Source of the DNA: an uncultured Lachnospiraceae bacterium | GTDB taxonomy: Bacteria; Bacillota; Clostridia; Lachnospirales; Lachnospiraceae | Assembly (NCBI GenBank): GCA_903789615.1 | Contig: CAIFEV010000003.1 | Span: 124,001 to 188,000, forward strand | DNA: 64,000 bases | Direction: 5' to 3' | Shown: one piece after another, positions 23,049-55,837 of the stretch | How positions within the stretch are numbered: the first letter of the stretch is position 1 | How the letters are laid out: each line of letters begins with the position of its first letter | Translations under genes and position numbers: made by a program | Notes under the pieces: model-generated | Databases searched by the model: none | What the model saw: the letters and a program-made list of their open reading frames with translations, nothing else | Told to the model about the DNA's origin: nothing

Positions 23049-23150
23049 AGCTTCCTTCCTGGCCGGATATAAGCCGGCTGCCGCCTGAATAAATTCTCTG
23101 CCGGTTCAGTATAAAACAAAATCCGGGAAACTTAAAGTACTGTATAAGTC

Positions 23151-23209
23151 GGTCGCAACGCAGGGCCGGATGCGCGCTTGCGCGCATATCCGGCCTGGCG
23201 TTAGCGACC
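23151..23209. repeat. Near-perfect 59-nt inverted repeat between divergent promoters
   Basis: GGTCGCAACGCAGGGCCGGATGCGCGCTTGCGCGCATATCCGGCCTGGCGTTAGCGACC; arms pair over most of their length. Confidence 0.85.
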
Positions 23210-23288
23210 ACAACAGGTATGAGCATGAAGCGACGCGTCAGCGGCGCGGAATATGACTTCTGGCGCACGTTTCCCGCCCGGAAATGGT

Positions 23289-23426
23289 TTGTATAAATGC
23301 GGAAAGGCGGTATAATACTGGAAAGCCCACCGGTTCGGGATGAGGGTGCCTGAGGGTGCCTGGCCTGCATCCAGTGCAAACATATAAGACGACGGATGGA
23401 ATGCGAGGCCGCCGGGGGCTTTTTTA
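23289..23426 (+). promoter_or_regulatory. Promoter plus attenuator-like structured leader of the DAHP synthase gene
   Basis: TTGTAT-N16-TATAAT; predicted 5' end AAAGCCC-A-CCGG pairs CCGG-GGGCTTT followed by TTTTTATTTT; internal GGCCT/AGGCC and GCAT/ATGC stems. Confidence 0.55.
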
Positions 23427-47339: not shown

Positions 47340-49451
47340 TCAGACTTCAAACAGCAGGTCGCCGTAGGACGGGAACGGCCAGTACTCCTTGTCGACAACC
47401 ATCTCGAGCCTGTCGGCCGGTGCGCGGAGCGCTGCCATGTCGACGGTAATGGTGTCGTGATAGTACTTTGCCTTCACGCTGTCGTCGGTGATCTCCTCCG
47501 CCTTCTTTAGATCCTGTATCAGAGCGGTGCGGGCCGCCTGCATAGCCTTCAGGTCTGAATTGGTCTCCTTCAGGATTTCGGTCTGAACGGACGGCTCCTC
47601 GCCGAGTTCCTTGACGGCGGCCGCACTGGCGGCAACATCGCCTTCGTAGGACATGACGGCCGGAATGATCTGCTTGCCGGACATGTTGATCATCGTCTTC
47701 GCCTCGATCGCGGTCTGCTTCGAGTACGCTTCGTACTTGATGTCCGCGCGGGAGAGAAGCTCTGTCTTTGAGAACACGCCGAACCTGCCGAAAAGGTCGA
47801 TGGCCTTGTCGCTGCGGAGCATGTCAACCGCATATGCCATGCAGTTGATGTTCGGAAGTCCGCGGCGCTTTGCCTCTTCCTCCCATTCCTTCGTGTAGCC
47901 GTTGCCGTTGAAGATGATTCTCTGGTGCTCGGTGAGAAGCTTCTTGATCAGGTCGTGGCAGGCCAGGTCAAAATCGGAAGCCTTCTCCAGCTCGTCTGCG
48001 ATCTCGCAGAAGCTCTCGGCGACGATGGTATTGAGAACGACGTTCGGCGGCGCAATGGAATCGGAAGAGCCGACCATGCGGAACTCGAACTTGTTGCCCG
48101 TGAAGGCGAAGGGCGACGTGCGGTTGCGGTCCGTAGCATCCTTGCGGATATTCGGAAGAGCCGATGTGCTTGTTCTAAGCGTGCCGCTCGGAAGAGAGCT
48201 CGTCGCGCTGCCGGTGTCGATCAGCTGGCGCACGACGTCCTCGAGCTGGTCGCCCAGGAATACGGAGATGATGGCCGGCGGCGCTTCGTTTGCGCCCAGG
48301 CGCTGGTCGTTTCCGACGCAGGAGGCGGACTCGCGCAGCAGATCTGCGTGAACATCCACAGCCTTGAGGATGCCGGCCAGGATCAGCAGGAACTGAATGT
48401 TCTCGTGCGGTGTCTTGCCCGGATCCAGAAGATTGATGCCGTCATCCGTGGTGAGAGACCAGTTGTTGTGCTTGCCGGAACCGTTTACACCCGCAAACGG
48501 CTTCTCGTGGAGCAGGCACGCCAGACCATGACGGTACGCCACTTTCTTCATGACTTCCATGGTCAGCTGGTTGTTGTCGGTTGCGATGTTGACCTCCGCG
48601 TAAATCGGAGCCAGCTCGTGCTGCGCCGGTGCAACCTCGTTGTGCTGCGTCTTGGCGGAAACACCGAGTTTCCAGAGCTCCTCGTTGAGATCCTTCATGA
48701 ATGAACCGATGCGCTCGCGGATAACGCCGAAATAGTGGTCGTCAAGTTCCTGGCCCTTCGGCGGCATGGCGCCGAACAGCGTCCTTCCGGTGTAGACCAG
48801 ATCCTTTCTCTGCAGATATTTCTCTCTGTCAACCAGGAAATATTCCTGCTCGGCGCCGACAGACGGCGTGACCTTTCTGGAGTGATCGTTGCCGAACAGT
48901 CTCAGGATACGGAGTGCCTGCTTGTCCAGCGCTTCCATGGAGCGCAGCAGCGGTGTCTTCTGGTCAAGCGCCTCGCCTGTGTAGGAGCAGAAAGCCGTCG
49001 GGATGCAGAGGATCGGGCCCGTCGCGCTGTCCCTGACAAATGCCGGGCTCGTCAGATCCCATGCTGTGTAGCCGCGGGCCTCAAAGGTGGCGCGCAGGCC
49101 GCCGGACGGGAACGAAGAGGCATCCGGCTCGCTCTCGATCAGCTCCTTGCCGGAGAACTGCTGCAGTACCTTGCCGCTCGGCAGCGGCGCGGAAATGAAT
49201 GCATCGTGCTTCTCGGCGGTGGATCCGGTCAGCGGCTGGAACCAGTGCGTGTAATGGGTGGCGCCTTTTTCAATCGCCCACTCCTTCATCTCGTGTGCGA
49301 TCACGTCGGCGTCTTCCATCGTCAGCTCGCGGATTCCGTCGATGGCGGCGTGGAAATTTTTGTAGGTGTTCTTCGGAAGACGGGCTCTCATGACAGAGTC
49401 ATTGAAGACGTTTTCGCCGAAGATTGCAGATACATCAGTCTTTTCGCTCAT
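47340..49451 (-). CDS. glnN: Type III glutamine synthetase
   Basis: About 700 aa; FCSYTGEALDQKTPLLRSM, VGAEQEYFLVD, NEVAPAQHELAPIYAE, NGSGKHNNWSL, GNDQRLGANEAPPAI motifs. Confidence 0.95.
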   Translation of the reverse strand: MSEKTDVSAIFGENVFNDSVMRARLPKNTYKNFHAAIDGIRELTMEDADVIAHEMKEWAIEKGATHYTHWFQPLTGSTAEKHDAFISAPLPSGKVLQQFSGKELIESEPDASSFPSGGLRATFEARGYTAWDLTSPAFVRDSATGPILCIPTAFCSYTGEALDQKTPLLRSMEALDKQALRILRLFGNDHSRKVTPSVGAEQEYFLVDREKYLQRKDLVYTGRTLFGAMPPKGQELDDHYFGVIRERIGSFMKDLNEELWKLGVSAKTQHNEVAPAQHELAPIYAEVNIATDNNQLTMEVMKKVAYRHGLACLLHEKPFAGVNGSGKHNNWSLTTDDGINLLDPGKTPHENIQFLLILAGILKAVDVHADLLRESASCVGNDQRLGANEAPPAIISVFLGDQLEDVVRQLIDTGSATSSLPSGTLRTSTSALPNIRKDATDRNRTSPFAFTGNKFEFRMVGSSDSIAPPNVVLNTIVAESFCEIADELEKASDFDLACHDLIKKLLTEHQRIIFNGNGYTKEWEEEAKRRGLPNINCMAYAVDMLRSDKAIDLFGRFGVFSKTELLSRADIKYEAYSKQTAIEAKTMINMSGKQIIPAVMSYEGDVAASAAAVKELGEEPSVQTEILKETNSDLKAMQAARTALIQDLKKAEEITDDSVKAKYYHDTITVDMAALRAPADRLEMVVDKEYWPFPSYGDLLFEV

Positions 49452-49506
49452 CTTTTACATGCTCCCTTCTTGTGATGACAGGTTCATTATCAGGCCGAAG
49501 CTGCTG

Positions 49507-49559
49507 AAAAAGAAAAAGCGCCCCCGAACGTTGGCATCAAGCCAAGGTTCCGGAACGCC
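49507..49559 (-). terminator. Attenuator hairpin in the glnN leader
   Basis: Minus strand GCGTTCCGGAACCTTGGC-TTGAT-GCCAACGTTCGGGGGCGC (16 of 18 paired incl. G-U) followed by TTTTTCTTTTT, about 55 nt 5' of glnN. Confidence 0.75.
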
Positions 49560-49703
49560 ATTGTTCTTCGCTTCAGTATTTGCTTCTGACTTTAAAAAGT
49601 CTATCGCATACACCGGACAAATGCAAGTTCTTTTTCATTTCTCATCAAAAATGCAGCCTTTAAAAAGATTCTTGACACGCCGGTCCCTGCTATGATACAA
49701 AAT

Positions 49704-49918
49704 ACCGGAGCGCCTTTCCGGGCGCAGTGAATTTCAGGATCACTCCGGTTCTGCCTTCAGACAGGCGGGCGGAGGCAGGCCATACGGACAGCCGGGTCCA
49801 CTGCCGAACGGCAGCTTAACGCTGCTTATTGACTGGGTTAAAAGCCCAGATTTTATAAGTTGGTTACTTACAAACCTATGTGCGTCGGAAGACGCAGACT
49901 TGTGAAACCGTCAATAAG
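49704..49918 (+). ncRNA. Candidate multibranched structured RNA, class not assigned
   Basis: Three-way junction ACCGGA[GCGCC/GGCGC][AGTGA/TCACT]CCGGT; CTGCC/GGCAG; GGAC/GTCC; CTGCCG-AA-CGGCAG; 9-bp CTTATTGAC/GTCAATAAG enclosing CTGGG/CCCAG, GGTT/AACC and TGCGTC-GGAA-GACGCA. Confidence 0.65.
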
Positions 49919-50079
49919 ATTCCAGGACGTTTAAGCGGCAGCCGCAGGCAGTTTCTGCAATTTGTCCGTCTTTTCGTACAGTCGGGGCTTTTCTGCCCTG
50001 CATTTTCCGATAATCTTTTGGCGTATTTATCTGTCTGCCGCATGCATCTTCCGGCTTCGGAAAGGAAACACGGAAGACC

Positions 50080-51537
50080 ATGAACAGCAGATATCATCTC
50101 GATCAGACAAAAGCGCCGATCTATGAGGCGCTTGAAGAGTTCCGCAAGATGCGGATCGTTCCGTTTGACGTGCCGGGGCACAAGAGGGGGCGCGGCAATC
50201 CGGAGCTCACGGCGTGTCTCGGCGAAAAGTGCGTCGGTGTGGATGTGAACAGCATGAAGCCGCTGGACAATCTGTGCCATCCGGTCTCCGTCATAAAGGA
50301 GGCGGAGGACCTGGCGGCCGATGCGTTCGGGGCGGCGCACGCCTTTCTCATGGTGGGCGGAACCACAAGCGCTGTGCAGAGCATGATCCTTACGGTCTGC
50401 AAGCGGGGCGACGAGATCATCCTTCCCCGGAATGTGCACCGCAGCGTGATCAATGCGCTGGTTCTGTGCGGCGCGGTTCCGGTGTATGTGAACCCGGAGG
50501 TGAACGCGTCTCTTGGCATTTCACTCGGCATGAAGCGGGAGGCCGTGGCGAAGGCGATCCGGGAGCATCCGAACGCGGTGGCAGTTCTGGTGAACAACCC
50601 GACATACTACGGGATCTGTTCGGACCTGCGCGCGATCGTGAAGATGGCGCACGACGCGGGCATGTACTGTCTGGCGGACGAGGCACACGGCACGCACTTT
50701 TATTTCGGGGGCGGCCTGCCGGTGTCGGCGATGGAGGCCGGCGCGGACATGGCGGCCGTTTCAATGCACAAGAGCGGCGGGAGTCTGACGCAGAGCAGTC
50801 TGCTGCTGTGCGGTCCCGGGATTCAGGCAGGATACGCCAGACAGATCATCAACCTGACGCAGACAACTTCCGGAAGCTATCTGCTGATGGTGAGTCTGGA
50901 CATCAGCCGCCGCAATCTCGCGCTGCGGGGCCGGGACGTGTTCCACCGGGTTTCGGACATGGGGGAGTACGCGAGACAGGAGATCAACGCGGTGGGAGGA
51001 TACTACGCATTCGGCCGCGAACTGCGCGACGGCAACGCCGTGTTTGACTTCGACACGACCAAGCTCAGCGTCCACACGCTGGACATCGGGCTTGCCGGCA
51101 TTGAGGTGTACGATATTCTCCGGGACGAATACGATATTCAGATTGAGTTCGGCGACATCGGCAACATTCTCGCATATCTTTCCATGGGCGACAGACCGCA
51201 GGAGATGGAACGGCTGGTGAGCGCCCTGGCGGAAATCCGCCGGCGGTATCAGAAGGACCCGGCGGGACTTCTGACGCAGGAGTACGTGGAGCCGCAGGTG
51301 GTGATAAGCCCCCAGGAGGCGTTTTACGCACAGAAAGTCAGTCTTCCGCTGTCGGAGAGCACAGGGCGGGTTGCGAGTGAATTTGTCATGTGTTATCCGC
51401 CGGGAATTCCGCTTCTGGCGCCGGGTGAGCGGATCACGGAAGAGGTTCTGGAGCACATTCAGTATGCAAAGGAAAAGGGCGCAAGCATGACGGGGCCGGA
51501 GGATCCGGACATTGAGCGGATCAACGTGGTGCAGTAA
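50080..51537 (+). CDS. Orn/Lys/Arg decarboxylase (PLP-dependent, short type)
   Basis: VPGHKRGRGNPEL, LMVGGTTSAVQSMILTVCKRGDEIILPRNVHRS, DEAHGTHFYF, VSMHKSGGSLTQSS motifs. Confidence 0.93.
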   Translation: MNSRYHLDQTKAPIYEALEEFRKMRIVPFDVPGHKRGRGNPELTACLGEKCVGVDVNSMKPLDNLCHPVSVIKEAEDLAADAFGAAHAFLMVGGTTSAVQSMILTVCKRGDEIILPRNVHRSVINALVLCGAVPVYVNPEVNASLGISLGMKREAVAKAIREHPNAVAVLVNNPTYYGICSDLRAIVKMAHDAGMYCLADEAHGTHFYFGGGLPVSAMEAGADMAAVSMHKSGGSLTQSSLLLCGPGIQAGYARQIINLTQTTSGSYLLMVSLDISRRNLALRGRDVFHRVSDMGEYARQEINAVGGYYAFGRELRDGNAVFDFDTTKLSVHTLDIGLAGIEVYDILRDEYDIQIEFGDIGNILAYLSMGDRPQEMERLVSALAEIRRRYQKDPAGLLTQEYVEPQVVISPQEAFYAQKVSLPLSESTGRVASEFVMCYPPGIPLLAPGERITEEVLEHIQYAKEKGASMTGPEDPDIERINVVQ

Positions 51538-51556: not shown

Positions 51557-52411
51557 ATGGAGATGTGGTTCAGCGAGTATCACACGCCGGACGTCAAGCT
51601 GGCGATGCGGGTGAAGAAGCATCTGTACCAGAAACAGAGTGATTTTCAGCAGATCGATATTTTTGACACGCCGGAATTCGGGCGTGTCCTCACGCTTGAC
51701 GGCAACATCATGCTGACGGAGCGGGACGAGTTCATCTACGACGAGATGATCACACACGTCCCGATGGCCGTGCATCAGGGGATCCGGAACATTCTGGTCA
51801 TCGGTGCCGGAGACGGCGGCGTGGTGCGGGAGCTGACGCGCTATGACCGGGTGAAGAACATCGACCTGGTTGAGATGGACCCGCAGGTGCTGGAGGCATG
51901 CCGGATGTATCTGCCGGGCAATGCGTGCCGGCTGGATGACAGGCGCGTGCACATCTATTTTGAAAATGCGCTGAAGTTCATCCGGCGCAGTGAGGAGAAG
52001 TACGATCTTATCATCGTGGATTCAACCGATCCGTTCGGGCCGTCCGAAGGGCTGTTCACGAAGGAGTTTTACGGGAGCTGCTACAATGCCCTGAAGGAAG
52101 ACGGAATCATGGTCAACCAGCAGGGGAGTCCGTTCTACGAGGAGGATGCCCGGGCCATGCAGCGCTCGCACAAGAGGATCGCCAGCACCTTCCCCATCAG
52201 CAAGGTGTATCAGGCTCATATTCCGACATACGCGGCCGGGTACTGGCTCTTTGGCTTCGCGAGCAAGAAGTATCACCCGGTGGACGATTTTGACCCGGAG
52301 AGCTGGAAGGCGCTGAACCTGCACACCCGCTACTACACGACAAGGCTTCACGTGGGAGCGTTCTGGCTCCCGGCGTTCCTGGAGGAGATGCTGCAGGAGG
52401 TGGAGGAGTGA
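51557..52411 (+). CDS. speE: Spermidine synthase family aminopropyltransferase
   Basis: GRVLTLDGNIMLTERDEFIYDEMITHVPM, VIGAGDGGVVREL, LIIVDSTDPFGPSEGLF motifs. Confidence 0.93.
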   Translation: MEMWFSEYHTPDVKLAMRVKKHLYQKQSDFQQIDIFDTPEFGRVLTLDGNIMLTERDEFIYDEMITHVPMAVHQGIRNILVIGAGDGGVVRELTRYDRVKNIDLVEMDPQVLEACRMYLPGNACRLDDRRVHIYFENALKFIRRSEEKYDLIIVDSTDPFGPSEGLFTKEFYGSCYNALKEDGIMVNQQGSPFYEEDARAMQRSHKRIASTFPISKVYQAHIPTYAAGYWLFGFASKKYHPVDDFDPESWKALNLHTRYYTTRLHVGAFWLPAFLEEMLQEVEE

Positions 52412-53295
52412 TGTTACATCCCAATGTGGAGACATTCATCGGCTGTGACAGCCGCTTTGAGGACGCAGACATCGTTCTCTTCGGGGCGCCGTTTGACTCG
52501 ACGACAAGCTACCGGCCGGGGGCCAGATTCGGTCCGCCCTCAATCCGGCACGAGAGCTTTGGACTGGAGACGTACAGCCCGTATCAGGACCGCGACCTCA
52601 CGGACATCCGTGTCTTTGACGCCGGAGACCTTGAGCTGTGCTTCGGAAACAGTCAGAAAGCGCTCGTATGCATCGAGGAGCGGGGGACGGAAATTCTGGC
52701 GGCGGGAAAGCTTCCGGTCATGACCGGCGGGGAGCATCTGGTGACGCTCGGGGCTTTCCGGGCTGCGTTCCGGAAATTTCCGGATATTCATGTTATCCAC
52801 TTCGACGCGCACTGCGATCTTAGAGACGAGTACCTCGGCGAGCCGTACAGTCACGCCTGCGTGCTGCGGCGCTGCCATGATCTGACCGGGGACGGGAGGA
52901 TCCACCAGTTCTGCATCCGCAGCGGGGACAGGAGCGAATTTGCCTTTGCCGCCGCCGGGCACACCGACCTGCACCCGTTCGGCTTTGAAGGTCTGGAAGA
53001 TACTGTGCATGAGCTTGCGGAAAGCCGCACACCGGTCTATCTCACGATCGACCTTGACTGCCTGGACCCGTCTGTATTCCCGGGGACCGGGACGCCGGAG
53101 GCCGGCGGTGTCACCTTTACGGCGCTTCTTCACGCGATCCGGCAGTGCGCCGCTCTTAATGTCGTGGCGGCAGACGTAAATGAACTGGCGCCGATGCTCG
53201 ACGCCTCCGGTGCTTCCACGGCCGTCGCGTGCAAAGTCGTGCGGGAGCTGCTGCTGGCACTGGCTCCGGAAGAGAAAAAGGCGGCCGGCATGTGA
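52408..53295 (+). CDS. speB: Agmatinase/ureohydrolase
   Basis: GAPFDSTTSYRPGARFGPPSIR, TGGEHLVTLG, HFDAHCDLRDEY, LTIDLDCLDPSVFPGTGTPEAGG motifs. Confidence 0.93.
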   Translation: MMLHPNVETFIGCDSRFEDADIVLFGAPFDSTTSYRPGARFGPPSIRHESFGLETYSPYQDRDLTDIRVFDAGDLELCFGNSQKALVCIEERGTEILAAGKLPVMTGGEHLVTLGAFRAAFRKFPDIHVIHFDAHCDLRDEYLGEPYSHACVLRRCHDLTGDGRIHQFCIRSGDRSEFAFAAAGHTDLHPFGFEGLEDTVHELAESRTPVYLTIDLDCLDPSVFPGTGTPEAGGVTFTALLHAIRQCAALNVVAADVNELAPMLDASGASTAVACKVVRELLLALAPEEKKAAGM

Positions 53296-53363
53296 CCGGA
53301 AGGGAATCCGGCGGGAACTGAAAATATACAATATAAATCAGAAATCAGAGAGGAGTACCCAAT

Positions 53364-54623
53364 ATGAGCAGAGTACTGGTTATCGGCTGCGGCGGTGTCG
53401 CGTCCGTGGCGATTCACAAGTGTGCGCAGGCAGATGATATCTTCACGGAACTGTGCATCGCGAGCCGCACAAAAGAGAAGTGTGACAGACTGGCAGGAGA
53501 GCTTTCCGGGAAGACGCGCACGAAGATCACGACGGCGCAGGTCGACGCGGATGATGTAAACCAGGTTATCGATCTGATCCGTTCCTACAAACCGGAGCTG
53601 GTTATGAACATCGCGCTTCCCTATCAGGATCTGACGATTATGGACGCGTGCCTGGCCTGCGGCGTGAATTACATGGATACGGCCAACTACGAGCCGGAGG
53701 ACACGGATGATCCGGCGTGGCGGGAGATTTACGAGAAGCGCTGCCGTGAGAAAGGCTTCTCTGCATATTTTGACTACAGCTGGCAGTGGGCATACAGAAA
53801 AAAGTTTGAGGATGCCGGCCTCACGGCGCTGCTGGGCTGCGGCTTTGACCCCGGGGTTACGCAGAGCTACTGCGCATATGCAAAGAAGCACGAATTTGAC
53901 ACGATTGACACCATCGATATCCTGGACTGCAACGGCGGTGACCACGGGTACGCATTTGCCACGAATTTCAATCCGGAGGTGAATCTGCGCGAGGTGTCGG
54001 CTCCCGGAAGCTACTGGGAGGACGGGCACTGGGTGGAAATCCCGGCCATGAGCATCAGGCGGGAGTACAATTTCGATGAGGTCGGACAGAAGGACATGTA
54101 CCTGCTGCACCACGAGGAGATCGAGTCGCTGGCGCAGAATATCCCGGAGGTAAAGCGCATCCGTTTCTTCATGACGTTCGGACAGAGTTATCTGGACCAC
54201 ATGCGCTGTCTGGAGGACGTCGGCATGCTTTCCACCACACCGGTGCTCTTTGAAGGGCATGAGATCGTGCCGATAAAGTTTCTGAAGGCGCTGCTGCCGG
54301 ATCCGTCCACGCTGGGGCCCCGTACGAAGGGCAAGACCAACATCGGCTGCATTTTCACCGGCAAAAAGGACGGGAAGGACAAAACCTACTATATTTATAA
54401 TGTCTGCGACCATCAGGCGTGCTGCCGCGAGGTGGGCAGCCAGGCGGTGTCCTACACAACCGGCGTTCCGGCCATGTGCGGCGCGCTGATGCTGCTCAGC
54501 GGCAAATGGAGCAAAACCGGCGTGCACACCGTTGAGGAATTCGATCCGGATCCGTTCCTTGCGGCGCTTGACCGGTACGGACTTCCGAAAAAAGAATCCC
54601 GCACGCCGGTGCTTGTGCCATGA
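53364..54623 (+). CDS. Saccharopine dehydrogenase-like carboxy(nor)spermidine synthase
   Basis: VLVIGCGGVASVAIHKCAQ; NYEPEDTDDPAW...FDYSWQWAY; LLGCGFDPGVTQSYCAYAKK; adjacent to nspC. Confidence 0.9.
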   Translation: MSRVLVIGCGGVASVAIHKCAQADDIFTELCIASRTKEKCDRLAGELSGKTRTKITTAQVDADDVNQVIDLIRSYKPELVMNIALPYQDLTIMDACLACGVNYMDTANYEPEDTDDPAWREIYEKRCREKGFSAYFDYSWQWAYRKKFEDAGLTALLGCGFDPGVTQSYCAYAKKHEFDTIDTIDILDCNGGDHGYAFATNFNPEVNLREVSAPGSYWEDGHWVEIPAMSIRREYNFDEVGQKDMYLLHHEEIESLAQNIPEVKRIRFFMTFGQSYLDHMRCLEDVGMLSTTPVLFEGHEIVPIKFLKALLPDPSTLGPRTKGKTNIGCIFTGKKDGKDKTYYIYNVCDHQACCREVGSQAVSYTTGVPAMCGALMLLSGKWSKTGVHTVEEFDPDPFLAALDRYGLPKKESRTPVLVP

Positions 54624-55837
54624 TGCGGCCTGTGCCAGGGGCCTGCGACACCCGTCCGCCGTTCTCATGCATCCCGAAAGGGGCGGCAGAGTTTCCGGAG
54701 GGCCTTGTGACGCCTGCCTTTATCATCGATGAGGCAGCTCTTGCGCGCAACGCGCACGTGCTGGGACAGCTCGCAAAAGAGACCGGATGCCGGGTGCTGC
54801 TCGCGCAGAAGGCATTTTCCAATTACGATTTTTATCCTGTCTTTGCAGACGCGCTTGCCGGCACGGAGGCGAGCGGCCTGTATGAGGCGAGACTCGGGCG
54901 CGAGACGCTCCCCGGGGCAGAGTGCCATGTGTTTAGTGCCGCGTACCGGGATGACGAGTTTGACGAGCTGCTCTCGTATGCAGACCACATCGTGTTCAAT
55001 TCCCCGGGACAGCTCGCCCGATTCGCAAAGAAAGCAAAAGCAGCGGGAAAGAGCATCGGGCTACGCATCAACCCGGAAAAGTCCACACAGGAAGAGCATG
55101 CGATTTATGATCCGTGTGCTCCGGGGAGCCGGCTGGGCACGACGAGAGCGCAGTGGGATGCACAGATGACACCGGAGCTCGTGAGCCTGCTTGACGGTCT
55201 GCATTTTCACACGCTCTGCGAGCAGGACGCCGGGCCGCTCGCCGTGACACTTGCGGCGGTGGAAGAGAAATTCGGGGATGTGCTTGCGCGGATGAAGTGG
55301 CTGAATTTCGGCGGCGGCCATCACATCACGAGGCCGGGGTATCACACCGGTATTCTGCGGGAATGCATCCGGAAAGCACAGGATGCCTGGGGCGTGAGTG
55401 TGTACCTGGAGCCGGGGGAGGCCTGGGCGCTTAACGCGGGGTACCTTGCGTGCCGGGTCCTTGACGTCACGGAAAACAGCGGCATACGGTCAGCCGTTCT
55501 TGACGCAAGTGCTGCCTGTCACATGCCGGACGTGCTGGAGATGCCGTACCGACCGCCTCTTTTTGGCGCCGGAGAACCGGGTGAAAAGGCATATACGTAC
55601 CGGCTCGCCGGACCGACATGCCTGGCAGGCGACGTGATCGGAGACTACAGTTTCGACAGAGAACTTGTTCCCGGCAGACTGCTTTTATTCGGGGACATGG
55701 CGATTTACACCACCTGTAAGACAAACACCTTCAACGGGATGCCGCTGCCGGCGATTTTCAGCCGGAAGACAGACGGTACTCTCGTGAAGGTGAAGACGTT
55801 CGGATATCAGGATTTTAAAGGCCGGCTCGGACGATGA
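54620..55837 (+). CDS. nspC: Carboxy(nor)spermidine decarboxylase
   Basis: TPAFIIDEAALARNAHVL, LLAQKAFSNYDFYP, LHFHTLCEQDA, LNFGGGHHITRPGY motifs. Confidence 0.93.
   Translation: MMRPVPGACDTRPPFSCIPKGAAEFPEGLVTPAFIIDEAALARNAHVLGQLAKETGCRVLLAQKAFSNYDFYPVFADALAGTEASGLYEARLGRETLPGAECHVFSAAYRDDEFDELLSYADHIVFNSPGQLARFAKKAKAAGKSIGLRINPEKSTQEEHAIYDPCAPGSRLGTTRAQWDAQMTPELVSLLDGLHFHTLCEQDAGPLAVTLAAVEEKFGDVLARMKWLNFGGGHHITRPGYHTGILRECIRKAQDAWGVSVYLEPGEAWALNAGYLACRVLDVTENSGIRSAVLDASAACHMPDVLEMPYRPPLFGAGEPGEKAYTYRLAGPTCLAGDVIGDYSFDRELVPGRLLLFGDMAIYTTCKTNTFNGMPLPAIFSRKTDGTLVKVKTFGYQDFKGRLGR

Follow-up and report, generated by a model that had tools for sequence, protein, structure and literature searches.

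A conserved two-domain leader RNA of polyamine genes in Firmicutes, a candidate riboswitch

Analysis of a 64,000-nucleotide stretch of DNA (the window) revealed a large structured RNA in the leader of a polyamine operon. The predicted RNA is common to many Firmicutes. It is probably a cis-acting leader that switches expression off by polyamine feedback, and as such an orphan riboswitch candidate, which would directly sense a polyamine, most likely spermidine or one close to it. The RNA and the elements around it are listed below.

49672..49701, plus strand: promoter, -35 box TTGACA (49672-49677), 18-nt spacer, -10 box TACAAA (49696-49701)
about 49708, plus strand: predicted leader start site, downstream of TACAAA
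49737..49807, plus strand: domain 1 (RF02440, SpF59 / ldcC RNA), from cmscan and covariation
49737-49741 with 49795-49799, plus strand: P1 of domain 1, GGATC with GGTCC
49743-49747 with 49770-49774, plus strand: P2 of domain 1, CTCCG with CGGAG
49778-49793, plus strand: P3 hairpin of domain 1, GGCCATACGGACAGCC
49802-49807, plus strand: conserved TGCCGA at the 3′ end of domain 1
49811..49825, plus strand: P4 hairpin between the domains, GCAGCTTAACGCTGC; its last base is shared with P5
49825..49918, plus strand: domain 2 (core), described by our model R1; without an Rfam family
49825-49833 with 49910-49918, plus strand: P5, a 9-bp stem, CTTATTGAC with GTCAATAAG
49834-49848, plus strand: P6, inside P5
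49853-49860 with 49898-49905, plus strand: P7, UUAUAAGU with ACUUGUGA, joining P8 and P9
49862-49876, plus strand: P8, inside P5
49881-49896, plus strand: P9, TGCGTC-GGAA-GACGCA
49888..49905, plus strand: switching strand, made up of the P9 loop and the 3′ arms of P9 and P7; the predicted antiterminator strand in relatives, and in the window possibly an anti-anti-Shine-Dalgarno strand
50031..50054, plus strand: CTGTCTGC at 50031-50038 with CTTCCGG at 50048-50054, a possible pairing partner for the switching strand that can also pair near the ribosome-binding site
50061..50067, plus strand: probable Shine-Dalgarno sequence AAAGGAA, read from the sequence and compared with two congeners (L005 and L006)

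Structure and extent of the RNA

The initial annotation had proposed a structured RNA here, and the sequence and most stems were found where it had placed them, including the 9-bp stem enclosing the three hairpins P6, P8 and P9. The proposal was right about a structured RNA, but the element exceeds that description in size and in conservation, and P7 was overlooked. The region folded better than chance (z -3.15, 2 of 200 shuffles). Most relatives of the decarboxylase gene conserve the whole stretch up to 49918, well beyond the part known to Rfam, and from these relatives we aligned 52 sequences covering the downstream portion of the RNA (alignment A1). In A1 the P5-P9 fold comprises 32 pairs, 95.6% of the cells pair, and two-sided changes occur at 9 pairs, a level reached in none of 500 shuffles; these counts rest on related sequences. 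RNAalifold, applied to the alignment independently, predicted nearly identical P5-P9 helices. The 52 relatives keep P5-P9 and show covariation within it, so this is not a chance fold. P7 is backed by conservation and not by covariation, because it is almost invariant. The core also carries the conserved sequence GUGAAACSGUCAAUAAG in the alignment of relatives. The model R1 built from A1 matched the window at 49824-49939 with 96.6 bits and a rough E-value of 8e-18, the window sequence (L001) being a member of the training set.

In relatives the RNA has in addition a closing stem, P0, which covaries (own arms -20.96 against swapped arms -14.77 kcal/mol, 0 of 20000 permutations). The genus of the window lacks the conserved 3′ portion of this stem. 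The 3′ tail of the relatives (for instance near 1375-1390 of L072) contains GCUAUAUAGACUCUGA, which is kept even where the 5′ pairing partner differs, as in L101, and this suggests a further role for it.

The initial annotation had assigned the element to no known family, which was incorrect. A cmscan against the Rfam models placed RF02440 (SpF59_sRNA, "ldcC RNA") at 49737-49807 with 51.6 bits, over the gathering cut-off of 37.2, and this was the sole family above its gathering score in the leader. Matches below threshold (ctRNA, MIR2086, isrQ and others) were at chance level. The 54-nt model of RF02440 does not describe the full extent of the RNA. Among the 399 genomes of an even phylum sample R1 found the core in 20 and RF02440 occurred in 18, all of them within those 20. 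The core lay 15-20 nt 3′ of the RF02440 domain in each of the 18, and two genomes had the core without that domain. The loci L048, L080-L083, L085, L086 and L091 likewise have the core and lack RF02440. RF02440 is therefore an accessory 5′ domain; from these comparisons it covers just the 5′ portion of a larger predicted RNA made up of P1-P3, P4 and the P5-P9 core.

Covariation supported both domains of the RNA. Two-sided changes were seen in 14 of the 19 pairs of P1-P4 (51 sequences), which again none of 500 shuffles reached, and P4 had them at all six of its pairs. A three-way junction closed by ACCGGA (49704) and TCCGGT (49744), put forward earlier, was not conserved. Its 5′ arm sits at the predicted start site and is missing from the two congeneric species in which the RNA also occurs, and the junction is incompatible with P1 and P2 of the fold that covariation backs. 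The promoter fared better. Relatives have aligned TTGACA...TGnTAnnnT boxes 5′ of the RNA, matching those of the window, so the suggested TTGACA at 49672 with TACAAA at a spacing of 18 nt is real. A fold of the minus strand had similar energy, but the genes, promoter, terminators and Rfam match all agree with the plus strand.

Terminator and switching strand

An intrinsic terminator, consisting of a hairpin and a T-run, lies between the RNA and the gene at 111 of 117 loci. We searched the surrounding 250 nt for the best partner of its 5′ arm, and at 74 of the 111 loci this was the 3′ strand of P9/P7, compared with 5.9 for shuffled arms. As the relatives are not independent, arms and strands were swapped among 34 dereplicated loci; the own combinations paired at -10.01 and the swapped ones at -7.96 kcal/mol, which 0 of 20000 permutations equalled. 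Four control windows elsewhere in the RNA, examined with an initial form of the test, yielded a weak signal or none, the strongest (69 of 5000) being at the P7 5′ arm/P8. The pairing of own over swapped arms, together with the 74 best sites, indicates that the strand closing P9 and P7 can alternatively open the terminator. It is thus a conserved predicted antiterminator, with which the terminator 5′ arm covaries in relatives. In the group L080-L086, which lacks domain 1, the terminator arm reads CACAGG or CGCAGG in place of CGCAAG. Both forms are able to pair with CUUGUG, and in most members the best site of the arm is on the CUUGUG strand.

The leader hence combines a covarying aptamer-like domain with, in relatives, an expression platform that is mutually exclusive with the core fold, as in a riboswitch. 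The pairing geometry makes the folded core the OFF state. From about 49708 the leader RNA would fold into the accessory domain (P1-P3) and the core (P5-P9). With ample polyamine it would repress the downstream operon: the bound ligand would hold the core folded, the terminator would form and expression would stop. When ligand is scarce, the P9/P7 3′ strand would serve as the antiterminator and expression would proceed. Here we infer the switching by ligand, and the identity of the ligand is suggested by gene association.

The genus of the window differs in lacking the terminator U-tract. On the plus strand of the window, a simple terminator scan detected just the P6 hairpin, whose T-rich tail is weak, and nothing ahead of the gene; for this copy we therefore do not propose control by termination. 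Hairpins followed by T-rich tails were picked up automatically in the two congeners, but neither is the conserved terminator. In this genus the same switching strand may act by making the ribosome-binding site accessible. In the window the loop of P9 together with its 3′ arm can form a duplex of -20.2 kcal/mol with a sequence that overlaps a hairpin at the ribosome-binding site, a marginal result with 58 of 1000 shuffles as good. In L006 the same anti-Shine-Dalgarno pairing was a perfect match of about 15 bp (0 of 1000 shuffles), and in L005 it was good (6 of 1000). A translational switch is plausible for the window copy, and the weaker anti-Shine-Dalgarno version may replace the terminator in its genus.

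Downstream genes and the putative signal

The RNA of the window lies between a glutamine synthetase gene and a polyamine operon.

47340-49451, minus strand: glnN (type III glutamine synthetase), on the upstream side of the leader
50080..51537, plus strand: Orn/Lys/Arg decarboxylase, the predicted first regulated gene (PF01276, 219.8 bits)
51557..55837, plus strand: the four further genes of the polyamine operon, from Pfam/NCBIfam matches:
51557-52411, plus strand: speE (spermidine synthase)
52408-53295, plus strand: agmatinase
53364-54623, plus strand: carboxynorspermidine dehydrogenase-like
54620-55837, plus strand: carboxynorspermidine decarboxylase-like

The decarboxylase is probably an arginine decarboxylase because the agmatinase gene comes next. 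As the carboxynorspermidine genes (53364-55837) share the operon with spermidine synthase and agmatinase, two polyamine routes may be co-regulated. On the minus strand, a hairpin followed by a T-rich run, with a sub-threshold ctRNA-like Rfam match, was seen at 49506-49561 in the 5′ region of glnN and could be an attenuator of that gene. Elsewhere in the window, cmscan placed a THF riboswitch aptamer (RF01831, 14522-14645, plus strand, 77.2 bits) and a Clostridiales-1 RNA (RF01699, an sRNA family, 23141-23295, plus strand, 54.5 bits).

Besides the 20 phylum genomes, R1 found the core in 47 of 391 genomes of a class sample, and every matching genome had exactly one copy. The gene context was read at 47 loci found through the RNA model alone, with 17 weaker class matches left out. 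At all 47 the first downstream gene was polyamine-related, directly adjoining and in the same orientation: a decarboxylase gene at 17, speD at 13, the carboxynorspermidine dehydrogenase gene (CANSDH) at 9 and potA, for the ATPase of the spermidine/putrescine importer, at 8. In the 13 speD-first loci the decarboxylase gene follows speD, the SAM decarboxylase gene; at L113 the RNA lies upstream of speD. The SpeD assignment was confirmed in all four proteins checked (TIGR03331, scores close to 400 bits, cut-off 255.8). For PotA, TIGR01187 exceeded its cut-off in all five tested, the remaining three potA genes being read by eye. The best match of the CANSDH proteins was NF043000, at scores below its cut-off. 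In L145 the RNA and potA are separated, after the terminator, by an insert of about 300 bp whose ends are inverted (AAGCACACGGAAGTCGAACCC ... GGGTTCGACTTCCGTGTGCTT) and which resembles a small mobile element or repeat. The associated genes speA, speD, CANSDH and potA share one metabolite theme, and the common denominator of these and PotABCD is cellular polyamine supply. This placement before synthesis and import genes, together with the frequent terminator, lends strong support to the earlier suggestion that the leader controls polyamine synthesis.

The signal might be another molecule of the pathway, such as putrescine, agmatine, carboxyspermidine, norspermidine, cadaverine or decarboxylated SAM. 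The operons hold the carboxynorspermidine route, so the final products may differ between species, and a ligand of this kind is a possibility, if a rather unlikely one. A final polyamine, which is both made and imported, unites speA, speD, CANSDH and potA better than the intermediates do.

It is doubtful, though conceivable, that the leader is a cis-acting attenuator steered by a trans-acting factor, either the ribosome or an RNA-binding protein, instead of binding polyamines directly. The switch logic would be identical. The size of the RNA and its strict conservation over about 200 nt, which exceeds what a small cation obviously needs, speak for such a factor; a protein or other signal could take the place of a metabolite, and the invariant ACUUGUGAAA and UAUAAG could be protein contacts. 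However, no candidate protein is known, and the control of both importer and synthesis genes is what a metabolite signal predicts. Nor is a leader ORF apparent: a conserved short ORF for leader-peptide attenuation was not found by eye over the alignments, hairpin lengths vary, and 1-nt indels (AAUAAG versus AAUAAAG) break the sole recurring frame. A leader peptide from GUGAAACGGUCAAUAAG was rejected since indels break its frame.

The initial annotation had also offered an independent ncRNA. The apparent pneumococcal homologue is indeed catalogued as an sRNA (F59 / srn235 / srf-13, 328 nt; PMC3395615, PMC6212727, PMC12323649), and the predicted terminated transcripts of the relatives have a median of 367 nt. 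An attenuated leader equally predicts a short terminated transcript, whereas a trans-acting sRNA merely sharing the locus would have to lie directly 5′ of four different polyamine genes in 47 of 47 cases, with a terminator that covaries with a strand inside the RNA. We consider this very unlikely. A functionless, chance-structured intergenic region, which the moderately unusual fold energy by itself might have suggested, is refuted by conservation and covariation across classes.

Returning to a leader that senses polyamine directly, a bolder form would make it a second widespread class of polyamine riboswitch with an unrelated fold and a two-domain aptamer, in which domain 1, dispensable in some lineages, senses a second signal, giving a two-input switch of synthesis and uptake in gut Firmicutes. 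We put this forward as an improbable extension. Polyamines have long been suspected as riboswitch ligands. If polyamine sensing is true, gut Clostridia would have in this RNA a far commoner polyamine switch, and the pneumococcal srf-13 would be explained; what is filed as a 54-nt sRNA would prove to be one piece of a regulatory element of much greater size. The large, highly conserved core would make a good structural target.

Relation to known RNAs

RF02440 shares domain 1 with the window RNA, and in pneumococcus it also lies upstream of a decarboxylase gene, SP0916. The Rfam family is a 54-nt Streptococcus sRNA, whereas the window RNA adds P4 and the P5-P9 core. Relatives add the closing stem and the expression platform, and some keep the core without domain 1. 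The pneumococcal RNA has been described as F59, an 82-nt sRNA between SP0915 and SP0916 (PMC3395615), as srn235 / Spd_sr49 of 327 nt (PMC12323649) and probably also as srf-13 at 826260-826587, 328 nt, an 'ncRNA of unknown function' (PMC6212727). By position and length, srf-13 is probably F59. In S. pneumoniae, srf-13 (SPV_2247; F59, srn235, SN20, Spd_sr49) would contain F59/SpF59, and its transcript lies just 5′ of SP0916. Its 328 nt resemble the predicted attenuated transcripts of the relatives, a comparison of position and length and not of core sequence. In the open-access literature we found no published riboswitch or function assignment for SpF59, F59 or srf-13.

Other known RNAs were set against the leader as well. 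In agreement with the initial annotation, the Rfam models for T-box, lysine, cobalamin and guanidine RNAs did not match the region at E-values as high as 10, nor did those for 6S or raiA. With cmscan, a SAM-family match was found neither at gathering score in the window nor at E up to 10 in 49450-50150. The odc1 motif, the potE motif and the speF leaders are likewise RNA elements near polyamine genes (PMC8632094, PMC6386406). They differ in genes and lineages, odc1 uses a uORF, and none had an Rfam match here.

We found a single confirmed class of spermidine riboswitch. It is a variant of SAM-I, rare (13 representatives in a few genera) and with the four-stem SAM-I fold, which turns off speE, speB, speD and ldcC by termination (PMC10853860). 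The window RNA resembles it in the similar polyamine genes and in the same apparent logic of OFF by termination. However, the window RNA is unrelated in fold, is far more widespread, and additionally occurs before potA and CANSDH.
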